Source: a virus
IMG/VR virus record: IMGVR_UViG_3300045999_009418
Coordinates: 1-37,473 of that record
Reading direction: 5' to 3' (one strand)
DNA: 37,473 nt
Both the position numbers and the translations under genes were made by a program. Below, one piece after another: positions 24,973 to 36,507 of the stretch (within the stretch, counting starts at the first letter, position 1; every line of letters starts with the position of its first letter). The notes under the pieces are model-generated. The model made no database searches. It was given only the letters and a program-made list of their open reading frames with translations, and had not been told where the DNA came from.

Positions 24973-26433
24973 TCATGCTTTAACAATTCGTGCCCGTGGC
25001 GTCCCGCGCCGCCACTGCCGACGCAGCTTCATCTTCATGGCTGCCCATCCCTCAGGTGACTTGTACTGCCGCTGGTATCCCAGCCGCGTCAGCTCCTGCA
25101 GCGTCTTGCACGCCCGTTCTTCCTCCTCCCGCTTGCGCCGCTGATCCGCCAGCTCAGCCTTGATCGCCGCACGGGGATCAACCTCAATCAACTGCCCCGC
25201 GACGATCTTCGGCCCCCATGGCAGCCGAGTCTCGCGCACATGGCCGCACTCCTGGCAGGCCCCGTTCACCACGTCACAGGAATAGCAGCGCTCGCAGACG
25301 GTCACTGCCGGCGCGGGATCCCCCTTCCGCCGCTTCCGGCCGGCGTCCAGGTCCCACAAGTGCATCCTGCGCTGCAGGGGGCTGCCAATTCCAGGGCGGC
25401 GCAAGTTGCCCGCGTGATCAAGGATCAACAGGTCCGGCCACTGCGTCGCGATCCTCAGGCCGCGGCCACACATCTGCAGCCAGACCCTCAGGCTCTCCGT
25501 GCCTCGCTCACACAGCAACGCGGCTATCTCGCGGATATCCACGCCCGCCAACCACATGTCAGCGCTGGCCACCAGATCCAGCCCGCCGCCCTGCAGCCCT
25601 TCGCGGGCCCACCAACGGTCCCTTGGGTTGCTCTGGCCGCTGACCGACATGGCCCGGTAGCCGGCATCCCGCCAGCGCTGGGCCAGGGCCTCGGCAGAGC
25701 GGATATCGTGGCAGAAAGCAGCCGTGGGCCGGATGCGCCCGTCCGGCTCGATGCACAGCCGCTGCCAGTGCTCCAGTGAGTCGCCCATGATCTTGGGCCG
25801 GCTCATGATCCGCCCGGCCTCTGTCGGGTCCAGGTCACCGCCACGGCGGCGAACCTTCGCCAGATCGGGATCGACGGGGAATGACCACAGCCGCACTGGG
25901 GACAGGCGGCCGGCATCCACCAGATCCACGGCGTCCTGGGTGCGGATCAGGTGGTCAAAGCCTCCCTCACGCATGGGGCGGCCGTCGGCGCGAACGGGGG
26001 TTCCAGTAAGGCCGAGCACCAGCGGCCGGCCGAAGTGGTCAAGGAGCCGCTGGTAACTGGCGGCTATGGCCAGGTCACACTCATCGATGATGATCAGGTC
26101 CGGCCGGGGGAGGGCTTCCAGGCGCCGGACGGCAGTCTTCAGGCTCACCAGGTGAACCGGCAGCTCGTATCTGGTGGGCTGGTCCCTCCAGATCCAGCCG
26201 TAGGCGGTGTTCCTCGCGTCCAGTCGGTCGGCGGTGCTCAACAGGAGCTCTTCCAGGTGAGCGAGGAACCACACCCGCTTTCCCTCGGCAACCCTGCGGC
26301 GGATGAACTCGGCGGCGGCGTGAGTCTTTCCCCAGCCGGTCACCGCCACCAGGATCGGCGCCCGGAACCCGTCGGCATAGGCCTGCTCGACGTCGGCGAG
26401 GGCCCGCAGCTGATCGGGGTAGAGACCGCTCAT
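24973..26433 (-). CDS. SF2 DEAD-like helicase with zinc-ribbon insert
   Basis: 486 aa. Motif I TGWGKT at 32-37 (a P-loop variant), motif II DECD at 117-120, motif III TGTP at 143-146, and motif VI QMCGRGLR, all in order for a superfamily 2 helicase. Residues about 385-405 (CERCYSCDVVNGACQECG) form a Cys4-type metal-binding insert. The basic C-terminus (RRQWRRGTPRARIV) suits DNA contact. It probably unwinds DNA for phage replication or recombination together with the VRR-NUC and primase-helicase. Stop TGA overlaps the next start. Confidence 0.85.
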   Translation of the reverse strand: MSGLYPDQLRALADVEQAYADGFRAPILVAVTGWGKTHAAAEFIRRRVAEGKRVWFLAHLEELLLSTADRLDARNTAYGWIWRDQPTRYELPVHLVSLKTAVRRLEALPRPDLIIIDECDLAIAASYQRLLDHFGRPLVLGLTGTPVRADGRPMREGGFDHLIRTQDAVDLVDAGRLSPVRLWSFPVDPDLAKVRRRGGDLDPTEAGRIMSRPKIMGDSLEHWQRLCIEPDGRIRPTAAFCHDIRSAEALAQRWRDAGYRAMSVSGQSNPRDRWWAREGLQGGGLDLVASADMWLAGVDIREIAALLCERGTESLRVWLQMCGRGLRIATQWPDLLILDHAGNLRRPGIGSPLQRRMHLWDLDAGRKRRKGDPAPAVTVCERCYSCDVVNGACQECGHVRETRLPWGPKIVAGQLIEVDPRAAIKAELADQRRKREEEERACKTLQELTRLGYQRQYKSPEGWAAMKMKLRRQWRRGTPRARIVKA

Positions 26434-26873
26434 GCGGCTGACTCACTCCCGCCCTTGGCGCCCTGCTCCAGGTCGGTGGCCACATGCTGAACCGCCAGGC
26501 TGTCCAGGCGCAGGGCAGCCCTGAGGACCCTTGCCAGCCCCTGGCGGATGGCAGGGGAGTCACCCAGCTCCAGGGCCCCAACCATCAGCGCGGCGACGGA
26601 GGGTAGCTCTGGCATCGGCAGCCGCCCCTCGGCCGTCCAGTGGAAACCGCTCTGCTCCAGCCCATGGGCAATCTCCATCCTGGCGACTGGACCGATGCGA
26701 CGGCCATGTGTTGCGAAGTGCTCCCGGCCGAGGCGGAGAATGTCGCCGATGGTGTGGATCCCGGCGCGGCGAAGCGCGTTGTAGGTGCGCAGGGAGAGGT
26801 TGAGCTGGTCAAGGTCTGACGTGGAGTCGGTGAGTGCCGCCGAGGTGCTGCACAGCAGGGGGTTGTCAGACAT
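26430..26873 (-). CDS. RNA polymerase alpha C-terminal-domain-like protein
   Basis: 147 aa from ATG 26873, one base after the dcd stop. Residues 21-75 match the alpha-CTD fold: LDQLNLSLRTYNALRRAGIH, TIGDILRLG, GPVARMEIAHGLEQSGF. Arg29, Asn32, Gly61 and Glu67 align with E. coli Arg265, Asn268, Gly296 and Glu302; Cys269, Lys298 and Ser299 are Ala33, Val63 and Ala64. The remaining 70 residues are a helical domain without a match. It may bind UP-element-like DNA, regulate phage promoters or compete with host alpha. Confidence 0.7.
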   Translation of the reverse strand: MSDNPLLCSTSAALTDSTSDLDQLNLSLRTYNALRRAGIHTIGDILRLGREHFATHGRRIGPVARMEIAHGLEQSGFHWTAEGRLPMPELPSVAALMVGALELGDSPAIRQGLARVLRAALRLDSLAVQHVATDLEQGAKGGSESAA

Positions 26874-26874
26874 A

Positions 26875-27480
26875 TCAGCTCCGTGCGGTGACAATCTGAT
26901 GGGGCTGATCTTGATATTTCCCCGCCCGGTCGGCGTAGGTCACGTCGCAGGGATCGCCCTCGAAAAACAGTGCTTGCACGATGCCCTCGTTCGCGTAGAC
27001 ACGCGCATCTGCATCGGAACCGTTATACAGTTCAATGGTGAGATGGCCCCGCCACCCGGCTTCCCCTGGCGTCAGGTTGGCGATGATCCCGCACCGGGCG
27101 TAGGTGCTCTTGCCAATGAACAGGCAGGTGATGCCGTCAGGGATGATCAGATGGTTGAGGGCGACGCCGAGAGCGTATGTCTTGTGAGGGTGGATAAAAT
27201 AGCTTTCGCCGGTGTCCGGGTCGTGGTTAAGCTCTAAAGTCTCAAGGCAGCGAGGATCGAACCTTTTGGGATCAACAATCTTGCCAGGAATGTGGCGATA
27301 AATCTTAAATTCTTTCGGCGATAATTGCAGGTCGTAGCCGTATGAGCTGCAGCCAGAGGAGATCGCTGGGATCCTCACTCCTGGCGGCATGTGGTTAATC
27401 TGCCGCACACATGACGGCTCGAATGGGGAGATCATTCCCATGGCGGCCTGCTGTTTAATCCAGCGATCTGACTTCAGCAT
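26875..27480 (-). CDS. dcd: dCTP deaminase
   Basis: 201 aa. Deoxycytidine triphosphate deaminase-type motifs in order: SSYGYD at 45-50, GKSTYARCG at 123-131 (Lys124, Ser125, Arg129), TPGEAGWRGHLTIELYN at 137-153 with catalytic Glu150, and GKYQDQ at 177-182. It converts dCTP to dUTP, feeding dTTP synthesis or dU metabolism. It is the first gene of the long leftward operon; a 28-bp palindrome lies 27 bp upstream, so a repressor may control it. Confidence 0.92.
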   Translation of the reverse strand: MLKSDRWIKQQAAMGMISPFEPSCVRQINHMPPGVRIPAISSGCSSYGYDLQLSPKEFKIYRHIPGKIVDPKRFDPRCLETLELNHDPDTGESYFIHPHKTYALGVALNHLIIPDGITCLFIGKSTYARCGIIANLTPGEAGWRGHLTIELYNGSDADARVYANEGIVQALFFEGDPCDVTYADRAGKYQDQPHQIVTARS

Positions 27481-27507: not shown

Positions 27508-27535
27508 AACCCTAGCATAAGCTTGTGCTAGGGTT
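27508..27535. promoter_or_regulatory. 28-bp palindromic operator candidate between dcd and RHH gene
   Basis: Arms AACCCTAGCA and TGCTAGGGTT are perfect inverted repeats around an AAGCTT core, with one T/G mismatch pair. It lies between the divergent dcd (leftward) and the RHH gene (rightward) and includes TATGCT on the minus strand, a plausible -10. A repressor dimer-of-dimers or a regulator of both genes is the simple reading. Confidence 0.65.
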
Positions 27536-27548
27536 TTGTGGCGTTCTG

Positions 27549-27767
27549 ATGTTTATGGAAACAGCCCAACTCAATGTCTGCCTCCCAAGGGAGATCCTTG
27601 AATGGATCGATGAACATCCGCCTGTTTCCAAGACCGGACTGGCTTCCCAAAGCGGGAAGCGCACGGCTGTGATTGTCCATCTGGTGAGACAGGCTATGCG
27701 GGGGTCAACCCGCCCCAGCGCGAGCAACCAGCACGACTGCCAGGGCAATGGCCCCGGCGAACCCTAG
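27549..27767 (+). CDS. Ribbon-helix-helix regulator
   Basis: 72 aa from ATG 27549 (ATG 27555 is an alternative). N-terminal TAQLNVCLPREILEWIDEHPP followed by KRTAVIVHLVRQAMRG fits the beta-strand plus two-helix RHH fold of CopG/Arc-type DNA-binding proteins. The palindrome at 27508-27535 directly upstream is a candidate autoregulatory operator also controlling dcd. The gene runs convergent into the small leftward gene ending at 27705. Confidence 0.7.
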   Translation: MFMETAQLNVCLPREILEWIDEHPPVSKTGLASQSGKRTAVIVHLVRQAMRGSTRPSASNQHDCQGNGPGEP

Positions 27768-27851
27768 GACGTACTCCCAGCGGATCCGTGGCGGTGGCCG
27801 ACGACGGCGGAGGTTGCGGCGCTGGCGGGTGGTCAGGTAATACCGGGTCAT
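27705..27851 (-). CDS. 48-aa basic membrane protein
   Basis: ATG 27851 overlaps the stop of the nucleotidyltransferase gene (ATGA). The sequence starts MTRYYLTTRQRRNLRRRRPPPR, then a single hydrophobic helix (WEYVLGFAGAIALAVVLVARAG). The strong positive cap predicts a cytoplasmic N-terminus. It overlaps the RHH gene by 63 bp at its 3' end. Function unknown. Confidence 0.55.
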   Translation of the reverse strand: MTRYYLTTRQRRNLRRRRPPPRIRWEYVLGFAGAIALAVVLVARAGAG

Positions 27852-28366
27852 GGGGTCACCTCCCGGTCCCGTGGATCCACCCAGCGCAGGCCGATCAACC
27901 TGAACAGCTCCGGCTCGGTCCTGGCGGGAACAACTGTTCCATCGGCGCGACGGAGTAGGCCGCCATCGGAGTGGAATCCTGCCCTCACCCAGGCAGCGGC
28001 GAGAACCCGACGGCTCCACTCGGCCGAGCCGGTGCGGATCGCGCACTGGAGACCGTAGCCGTCGGGATGAACCATGAAAAGATCCAGCTTCATCCCCTCA
28101 GGCAAGATCCGTTGGGTGTAGCGGCAGGGCAGCTCTCCGCGCACCTTTTCCCACTGGTTTACGACCGTGGCGAGGCCACTGGCAAACAGTGGTGTGGCGT
28201 CGTAAGCCTTGGGCACGCAGACGATCTCGATGTCACCAATCGTTGGGCGCTCGCGGAGGATACTGCCGCGCACGCTGATGACCTCGCAATGTGGCTTCAG
28301 CTGCTCCATCACACCAGCGGCGATGTGCTGGGCCTCTTTGAGGGGGATACGGGCGCCGGTGCTCAC
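27848..28366 (-). CDS. Minimal Pol X-type nucleotidyltransferase
   Basis: 172 aa from GTG 28366, which overlaps the upstream stop (GTGA) with GAGGGGGTG eight bases before. Motif VRGSILRERPTIGDIEIV gives Asp45 and Glu47 of the GD-x-(D/E) metal site; Asp95 in MKLDLFMV is the third carboxylate; TGS at 112-114 and a thumb-like EPELFRLIGLRWVDPRDRE follow. These match palm and thumb of family X polymerases (Pol beta-like), but the HhH/8-kDa domain is absent. Likely a small gap-filling or nucleotidyl-transfer enzyme. Confidence 0.7.
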   Translation of the reverse strand: MSTGARIPLKEAQHIAAGVMEQLKPHCEVISVRGSILRERPTIGDIEIVCVPKAYDATPLFASGLATVVNQWEKVRGELPCRYTQRILPEGMKLDLFMVHPDGYGLQCAIRTGSAEWSRRVLAAAWVRAGFHSDGGLLRRADGTVVPARTEPELFRLIGLRWVDPRDREVTP

Positions 28367-28983
28367 GGGGTCACCCCCTCTCGCACCATGCGGCCCTCGC
28401 GGTCCCAGCACAGACCGTGGCCTGGGCATTGCCGCACGCCGTGGCCCATGTCGCGGCCGGCGGAGAGGGGGATTTGGCGGTGAGGGCAGATGCCACATGC
28501 GGCGGTATGGTCTGCGTAGGCATCCTCTAGCTTGCGCTGGAAGCGGAGCTCAGGCCACTCTGCTGGCTCGCTGCGTCTGGCCCTGAGCTTGCGGACGCTT
28601 AGATCCGCGTTGATCCATTTTGAGGGGATTAAATAATCAGTGTCGCCATTATAAGGTTTTGATTCTCCTAGGCAAAGCGGTGCGCTTAAAATTCGCTGAT
28701 CATCGCGAATCTTGGTAACAAAAAACAAACTATGTGTTATAGTCAGAAACCTTGTATCAACATGAATATGCCAAGGGGGAAAGCCGATGTCTTTGTCTTG
28801 ATGAACTGTTCCGAGTAGCGGGATATGTTTCTGCCTGATACCGTACTCATAGCGCCATCGCTTACCCTCCAGCGTTGCGCATGGCACCCAGTAGGACCGG
28901 CCCTCCACCACCTCGGCGGGCGAAGGGTTGGCAGCGAGGAACTCGGCGAACCGGCGCAGTGCCGGGGGCATGGGGTAGATCAT
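28363..28983 (-). CDS. Rieske-motif protein (putative [2Fe-2S])
   Basis: 206 aa. The C-terminus holds Cys166-x-His168 then Cys186-x2-His189 in CPHRQIPLSAG...CPGHGLCWD, the full Rieske signature (C-x-H...C-x2-H with about 17 residues between). The N-terminal 130 residues contain HIHVDTRFLTITHSLFF and YLIPSKWINADLSVRKL, which I cannot assign to a Rieske oxygenase. So it is either an electron-transfer or redox-regulated phage protein. ATGA overlap with the next upstream gene; GTGA with the nucleotidyltransferase. Confidence 0.65.
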   Translation of the reverse strand: MIYPMPPALRRFAEFLAANPSPAEVVEGRSYWVPCATLEGKRWRYEYGIRQKHIPLLGTVHQDKDIGFPPWHIHVDTRFLTITHSLFFVTKIRDDQRILSAPLCLGESKPYNGDTDYLIPSKWINADLSVRKLRARRSEPAEWPELRFQRKLEDAYADHTAACGICPHRQIPLSAGRDMGHGVRQCPGHGLCWDREGRMVREGVTP

Positions 28984-33152: not shown

Positions 33153-33239
33153 TGTGACAGATTGTGAACGGTGCCAGTGGGTTGGGTGCATGGCGTCACG
33201 GGTGCGTTACAGTGTGGTCATCGGGAGGGAAAGCCTCTC
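33153..33239 (+). promoter_or_regulatory. Promoter-stem-loop cassette B
   Basis: Box TGTGACAGATTGTGAACGG at 33153-33171, core GTCACGGGTGCGTTACAGT at 33195-33213, then a hairpin GGGAGG-gaaag-CCTCTC at 33223-33239. Box to core is 42 bp and core start to hairpin is 28 bp, exactly as in C and D. It drives the run of small genes from 33262. Confidence 0.75.
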
Positions 33240-34253: not shown

Positions 34254-34488
34254 TCCCACCACCGCCGCCCGAAGCCGCCGCTACAGGCAGCGCAAGGCCG
34301 GTGAGCTGCCCCCTGTCGAGCGGCTCACCTGCAGGCTCTGCCCTCGGATCCACACCGGGGCCAGGGGTGACCTGTGCGCCCGGTGCTGGCAGTGCCACAC
34401 CCCCGAGGGGCGGAAGGATCAGGCGGATCGCGTGGCGTGGTTCAGGGCCGGGCGGAAGGCATCGCAGACCACCCCTAGGGGTGTGTGA
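34246..34488 (+). CDS. Small basic Cys-rich protein
   Basis: 80 aa from ATG 34246. AARSRRYRQRKAGELPPVERL, then CRLC and CARCWQC (four Cys), then GRKDQADRVAWFRAGRKAS. A small zinc-binding, nucleic-acid-contacting protein is plausible. Its stop lies within the upstream box of cassette C. Confidence 0.5.
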   Translation: MTDPTTAARSRRYRQRKAGELPPVERLTCRLCPRIHTGARGDLCARCWQCHTPEGRKDQADRVAWFRAGRKASQTTPRGV

Positions 34489-34568
34489 CGAATTGTCAAC
34501 AGGCTGGGTGTGGGGTGGGGTGTGCGTCACGGGTGCGTTACAGTATGTGCATCGGAGGGAAGACCTCC
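34484..34568 (+). promoter_or_regulatory. Promoter-stem-loop cassette C
   Basis: Box TGTGACGAATTGTCAACAG at 34484-34502, core GTCACGGGTGCGTTACAGT at 34526-34544 (identical to B and D), hairpin GGAGG-gaaga-CCTCC at 34554-34568. A perfect CACCCCTAGGGGTG palindrome precedes the box at about 34470. Drives the 34594 gene. Confidence 0.75.
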
Positions 34569-35357: not shown

Positions 35358-35443
35358 TGTAACAGTTCGTGAACAGTCCGCCTGGTGCCGCCCCTTGCCG
35401 TCACGGGTGCGTTACAGTCAGGTCATCGGAGGCGAGAGCTTCC
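35358..35443 (+). promoter_or_regulatory. Promoter-stem-loop cassette D
   Basis: Box TGTAACAGTTCGTGAACAG at 35358-35376, core GTCACGGGTGCGTTACAGT at 35400-35418, hairpin GGAGG-cgagag-CTTCC at 35428-35443 with one G-U pair. Same 42-bp and 28-bp spacings as B and C. Confidence 0.75.
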
Positions 35444-35854: not shown

Positions 35855-35905
35855 GATCACCCGCCAGATCACCCGAGACATCCGCCAGCAGATCACTGGC
35901 AAGGA

Positions 35906-35986
35906 TCAACTGGCACACATCAACTGGCACACATCAGCGCTGATCAGTGATCAGGGATCAACTGGCACAGATTAACTGGCACACAT
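35906..35986. repeat. Two tandem pairs of a 14-bp repeat
   Basis: TCAACTGGCACACAT occurs at 35906 and 35920 overlapping by one base, and the near-copies TCAACTGGCACAGAT and TTAACTGGCACACAT at 35958 and 35972. Pairs are separated by a GATCAGT-rich spacer. Confidence 0.7.
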
Positions 35987-36318
35987 CGGAGATCGGTGAT
36001 CAGTGATCGCCAGTGATCTGCTGATCTGGCTCCAGTGGTCCAAAACCCTGTGCTGGCGCGGGTTCTGAGATCTGGCGGGGCTGGAGACGCCAGATGGGAG
36101 CACTGACTTCACTGATCGTTTACTGATCGTTTTACTGATCGGTCCCAGATCTCTAAAACGTAGTCATAGTAAGGGTTTATAGATAGATACTTACTGTTTA
36201 CTGATCTACTGACTGTTTTTCTGCTCCTCTCTCTCGATCTCTCTGTTTTGTATCAGGGGGAACCTTTTATTTTTTTCTCTGTCTGAAGCGATCAGTAAAT
36301 CAGTAAACCGGGCTGGTC

Positions 36319-36361
36319 TCACTGAGACTCACTGCGGCGCAACAGTTCTCAGTGATCAGTG
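36319..36361. repeat. 43-bp imperfect direct repeat, copy 1
   Basis: Copy 1 of a repeat found again at 36417-36459, starts 98 bp apart, with about 32 of 43 positions alike; each copy ends in a GATCAGTG iteron. Confidence 0.6.
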
Positions 36362-36416
36362 GCGATCAGTAAATGATCAGTAAACGATCAGTGGTTGTCA
36401 GTAAACATCTGGCATG

Positions 36417-36459
36417 TCGCTGAGATCGCTTGCGCTGCAACGGTTCTCAGGGATCAGTG
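36417..36459. repeat. 43-bp imperfect direct repeat, copy 2
   Basis: Copy 2 of the repeat at 36319-36361, ending GGGATCAGTG. Confidence 0.6.
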
Positions 36460-36507
36460 ATCTGTCAGTGATCTTCGCTAGCCTCAGTCTCATCCAGTGA
36501 TCAGCAG

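Follow-up and report, generated by a model that had tools for sequence, protein, structure and literature searches.

A free RNA polymerase alpha C-terminal domain encoded between dcd and a helicase gene in an apparent Synechococcus siphophage

The window analysed here is the whole 37,473-nt stretch of the IMG/VR virus record IMGVR_UViG_3300045999_009418, which is linear and possibly incomplete. The gene under study encodes a protein of 147 aa that includes a C-terminal domain of the RNA polymerase alpha subunit (aCTD), and its 147 codons are read on the minus strand, starting with the ATG at 26873 and followed by a TGA stop (26430-26432). Its start sits one base past the stop of the dCTP deaminase gene (dcd), its TGA overlaps the start of the helicase gene (ATGA), and the gene order is dcd-aCTD-helicase-VRR-NUC-like-YqaJ exonuclease. 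Codon statistics favoured this frame over the other five, both in the aCTD half and in the C-terminal half. The features are listed in Table 1. Between the head of the dcd operon and a divergent small ORF (27525-27767), which reads by eye as a ribbon-helix-helix protein and has no Pfam match, a palindrome (CCCTAGCATAAGCTTGTGCTAGGG) is located at 27510-27533.

Table 1 Features at the aCTD locus and in related contigs (window coordinates unless a contig is named)
Feature	Position	Strand	Basis or remark
Stand-alone aCTD protein gene	26430..26873	-	ORF, ribosome-binding site, codon statistics, PF03118 at 37.1 bits; 147 aa
aCTD domain, residues 19-79	26637..26819	-	PF03118, NCBIfam, PDB matches, model
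Helical C-terminal half, residues 80-147	26433..26636	-	Predicted models; no detectable relative
Ribosome-binding site GGAG	26879..26882	-	Inside the end of dcd; present in L002 too
27 nt shared exactly with the L002 slot gene at its 5' end (putative recombination joint)	26836..26862	-	Sequence comparison
dCTP deaminase (dcd), upstream neighbour	26875..27480	-	PF22769, phrog_1663
SF2 DNA helicase, downstream neighbour	24973..26433	-	phrog_16, PF04851
Three ~85-nt boxes	33153-33237, 34484-34568, 35358-35442		Highly similar; each shortly before a small ORF
Sigma gene + aCTD + thyX + dcd neighbourhood	L010 2696-6582, L011 925-6582, L065 1077-5023		

The Pfam family PF03118 (RNA_pol_A_CTD) matched residues 19-50 of the protein well above its cut-off of 23.8 bits (37.1 bits, E=2.7e-9). 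At E up to 1 the only other Pfam match was a sub-threshold TfoX_C, and no generic helix-hairpin-helix (HhH) family was matched, so the search did not return the HhH-only result that had been named in the original prediction as evidence to the contrary. Residues 18-79 were matched by the C-terminal region of the NCBIfam rpoA models, out to the model ends, and every match at E < 0.5 in a PDB sequence search was RpoA. An AlphaFold model of the protein was built with 22 locus-derived sequences, and its block-mean pLDDT was 82-96 over residues 21-80 and 59 at the ends. In structure alignment of the aCTD model, the best match was 8hvr_K (Z 10.2) and ranks 1-43 were RpoA or plastid alpha throughout (Z 10.2 to 7.4); the first non-alpha structure followed at Z 7.3, and HhH domains of RAD51 paralogues scored about 7. 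Foldseek E-values were weak (best 0.014), as is expected for a domain of 60 residues. Judged by family and predicted fold, the protein thus carries a true RNA-polymerase aCTD. This domain is the sole part matched by Pfam and NCBIfam, and the alpha N-terminal domain (NTD) is absent. Because the NTD is the assembly domain, the protein is unable to replace the alpha subunit. Sequence families, the fold and the genomic setting all back the prediction of a phage-encoded aCTD-like protein lacking the NTD. The domain is not a recent copy of a host gene, since it shares only 31% of 61 residues with the Synechococcus aCTD.

The C-terminal half had been described as novel and helical. Helices were indeed predicted, namely three with moderate confidence in the full model, and one short and one long helix in a different arrangement when residues 80-147 were modelled alone. 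This half matched no Pfam or NCBIfam family, had no PDB sequence match and no detectable relative, and its model gave no usable match among PDB folds, which means "no match" rather than "new fold"; the word novel holds in that sense only.

A Synechococcus-type host is likely, because the 757-aa tail protein of the window matched only the Synechococcus siphophages S-LBS1, S-CBS1 and S-CBS3 and the best matches of dcd were cyanophages. By these matches the virus resembles a Synechococcus siphophage. A sigma-like gene is present in all three siphophages and PF03118 was found in none of them; in the window record, which may be incomplete, no sigma gene or sigma region 4 was matched. Elsewhere in the window (27848-28983), a polymerase-beta-like protein (27848-28498) partly overlaps a Rieske-domain protein (28363-28983), a pair that a small siphophage would not usually carry.

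The nearest relative (L002/G001) has a dcd 96% identical and a helicase up to 81% identical to those of the window, and the slot between them holds an unrelated protein of 89 aa without a Pfam family. This slot protein is related to the 87-aa protein in the slot of L003 (z about 16), and the helicases of the slot relatives are 63-81% identical to that of the window. The ribosome site and the first codons are common to the aCTD gene and the L002 slot gene. The exact stretch of 27 bases covers codons 4-13 of the window gene, after which the sequences diverge until identity returns at the helicase start. The aCTD gene hence looks like the product of a chimeric cassette swap. In the simplest reading, recombination would have put an aCTD-plus-tail cassette in place of the resident gene body and left the old leader peptide. 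The unrelated protein in the slot of the relative shows that the operon can do without the aCTD protein.

In E. coli RpoA, we take R265, N268, C269, G296, K298, S299 and E302 to be DNA contacts and D259/E261 to be sigma contacts. Residue mapping agreed exactly with the predicted pattern of kept Arg265, Asn268, Gly296 and Glu302 and changed Cys269, Lys298 and Ser299: four of the seven DNA-contact positions are kept (R29=R265, N32=N268, G61=G296, E67=E302) and three are changed (A33=C269, V63=K298, A64=S299, that is C269A, K298V and S299A). In addition, the acidic sigma contacts D259/E261 are replaced by Q23/N25, a change absent from the original prediction. It has been reported that Arg265 of the host aCTD is crucial for contacts with the UP element and CRP and is a target of phage T4 (PMC2988021), and that the aCTD and sigma region 4 of the host touch at promoters (PMC4496709). 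From its residues, the window aCTD could keep the minor-groove arginine, while its binding of canonical UP elements is probably weak; the incomplete contact set (4/7) weakens the claim of UP binding and not the assignment of the domain. Without D259/E261, a sigma contact of the standard kind is less likely, and we infer that the usual one is missing.

Full-length close relatives of the protein were not found by single-protein scans of viral contigs, genome contigs, phages and plasmids. The genome-contig matches comprised a Clostridium free-aCTD protein (L020) and, judged from its length, an ordinary RpoA (L021), besides Y-family polymerases, as read from L022 and L024. An aCTD profile scan gave 29 viral loci, at many of which a single protein combines sigma region 4, a linker and an aCTD. 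A sigma-region-4-like part, linker and aCTD were noted at L034, L037, L040, L043, L044, L046, L050, L052, L055, L058 and L061, the sigma part being confirmed by Pfam for L034 and L050 and assigned by eye at the other loci. DNA-contact residues are mostly complete in these fusions, although positions 265, 268 and 269 were partly set by the search pattern and are no independent evidence for the profile-scan loci. As in the window protein, the aCTD module of the fusions is detached from RpoA, but the window protein has no sigma part.

Three dcd-carrying viral contigs (L010, L011 and L065) encode a protein of roughly 200 aa with the aCTD in its middle and a helical tail; its gene immediately precedes thyX and follows a cyanobacterial-type sigma gene at a distance of 0.6-2.3 kb. 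These proteins resemble that of the window in the order of aCTD and helical tail, in the NALRRxGI signature and in lying near dcd, with thyX also near. They differ in an extra N-terminal part, in R265, which is lost (Leu or Ala), and in C-terminal halves that are not detectably related; when the window C-terminal half was compared with their tails and with the L002/L003 slot proteins, no signal rose above shuffles. Moreover, a sigma gene lies near their aCTD, whereas the window record has no sigma match. Their aCTD is under purifying selection (dN/dS, omega, 0.013-0.25), which, despite the loss of R265, suggests a protein-contact role.

Among named-phage proteins, the only sequence match at E < 0.1 was the "RNA polymerase subunit alpha" of Bacillus phage vB_BmeM-Goe8 (210 aa; two copies, one close to either genome end). 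This phage protein likewise has a free aCTD, with 40% identity over 52 residues, but its aCTD is C-terminal behind an unrelated N-terminal part, and its seven DNA-contact positions are RpoA-like save R for K298. Free aCTDs also occur in Mycobacterium phages Mithril and Zenteno07 and Microbacterium phage Atraxi. Short "RNA polymerase, alpha subunit, C-terminal" proteins of uncultured Caudovirales phages (such as A0A6J5L490), Mithril (gp57, 149 aa) and Atraxi (gp24) have, like the window protein, a stand-alone PF03118 and the aCTD fold without the NTD, and differ in their attached parts; BFVD holds uncultured-phage proteins of 105-139 aa, the majority bearing an alpha C-terminal annotation. Small phage aCTD proteins are thus already in databases and the kind is known by annotation, while a literature search on phage aCTD-like proteins returned no paper describing them or their function. 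Compared with bacterial RpoA, whose CTD has the same family and fold, the window protein lacks the NTD and is changed at three DNA-contact and two sigma-contact positions. Within this rare kind, what is new in the window gene is the unmatched helical tail to which its free aCTD is joined.

The reading that we prefer, at slightly less than even odds (about 0.45), is that the free aCTD module modulates transcription by the host RNA polymerase as a small adaptor between DNA and polymerase. It is favoured by the aCTD identity with the kept R265, N268, G296 and E302, and because other phages join the aCTD to sigma, either in the region 4 fusions or in the L010/L011/L065 neighbourhood. The aCTD part would bind DNA and/or a host transcription factor, with DNA binding probably weak because K298 and S299 are gone; the helical tail might dimerise the protein or bind a partner, which is a guess; and during infection polymerase or an activator would be guided to selected promoters or held away from them. 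A role as recruiter or decoy of the host polymerase, as originally proposed, is plausible. The adaptor reading is weakened because K298V, S299A, C269A and D259Q/E261N abolish contacts that RpoA makes, and because no sigma region 4 gene was found in the window and the aCTD gene lies in a DNA-metabolism operon.

That operon setting, with the ATGA overlap, would rather suit an aCTD-derived HhH accessory that keeps DNA in place for the helicase or nuclease beside it and has no part in transcription. The sigma-contact residues are lost, and the second hairpin of the window aCTD reads IGPVA, which the general HhH hairpin resembles. However, the relatives carry an unrelated protein beside a 63-81% identical helicase, so there is no fixed partnership, and the Pfam match is to the aCTD and to no HhH family, with generic HhH folds scoring clearly lower. 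We consider such an accessory possible, though on the unlikely side.

Alternatively, the protein could be a decoy of the host aCTD that occupies activators or UP elements, by which host promoters but not phage promoters would lose activation. The window protein has the surface of an aCTD and lacks the region required for assembly into polymerase, and phages are known to target the host alpha subunit, as by T4 Alt/ModA acting on the aCTD (PMC2988021) and, as reported, by Rac cleavage of alpha (PMC7552054). Nevertheless, with its low identity to the Synechococcus aCTD it would imitate host-specific activator surfaces poorly, and K298/S299 are missing for strong UP binding. We hold a decoy to be unlikely.

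Phages that are not related to one another (cyanophage-like, mycobacterial, Microbacterium and Bacillus phages, and other viral contigs) repeatedly carry free aCTD modules, which in some cases are fused to a sigma part or lie close to one. Should these modules act in trans on promoters, phages would have a so far overlooked route to redirect host RNA polymerase. The window protein and its relatives, some with the DNA-reading arginine and some without it, form a ready natural test set. A bolder extension, which we hold to be quite improbable, is that cyanobacterial siphophages reprogram host transcription by a detached aCTD that reads upstream promoter elements in trans, alone in the window phage or with a phage sigma factor in L010/L011/L065.

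The window's three ~85-nt boxes (33-35 kb) share a core that is exact in all three (chance 0.01) and contain TGTRAC-N-GTSAAC and an inverted GTCAC..GTTACA part. The original suggestion that the aCTD protein binds these boxes, those of cassettes A-D, was rejected and is highly improbable, because one copy is kept in the closest relative, G001, where the aCTD gene (PF03118) is absent, and because the boxes are G+C-rich TGTRAC/GTCAC dyads and not A-tract UP elements, A-tracts being the DNA preferred by the aCTD (PMC4496709). The boxes look like shared operator/promoter units. Dense ACTGATC/CAGTAAAC and ATCAACTGGCACAC repeats were also seen at 35886-36480 around an A+T-rich stretch; they are nearly unchanged in G001 (L072 5310-5850) and may mark an origin or a regulatory region.
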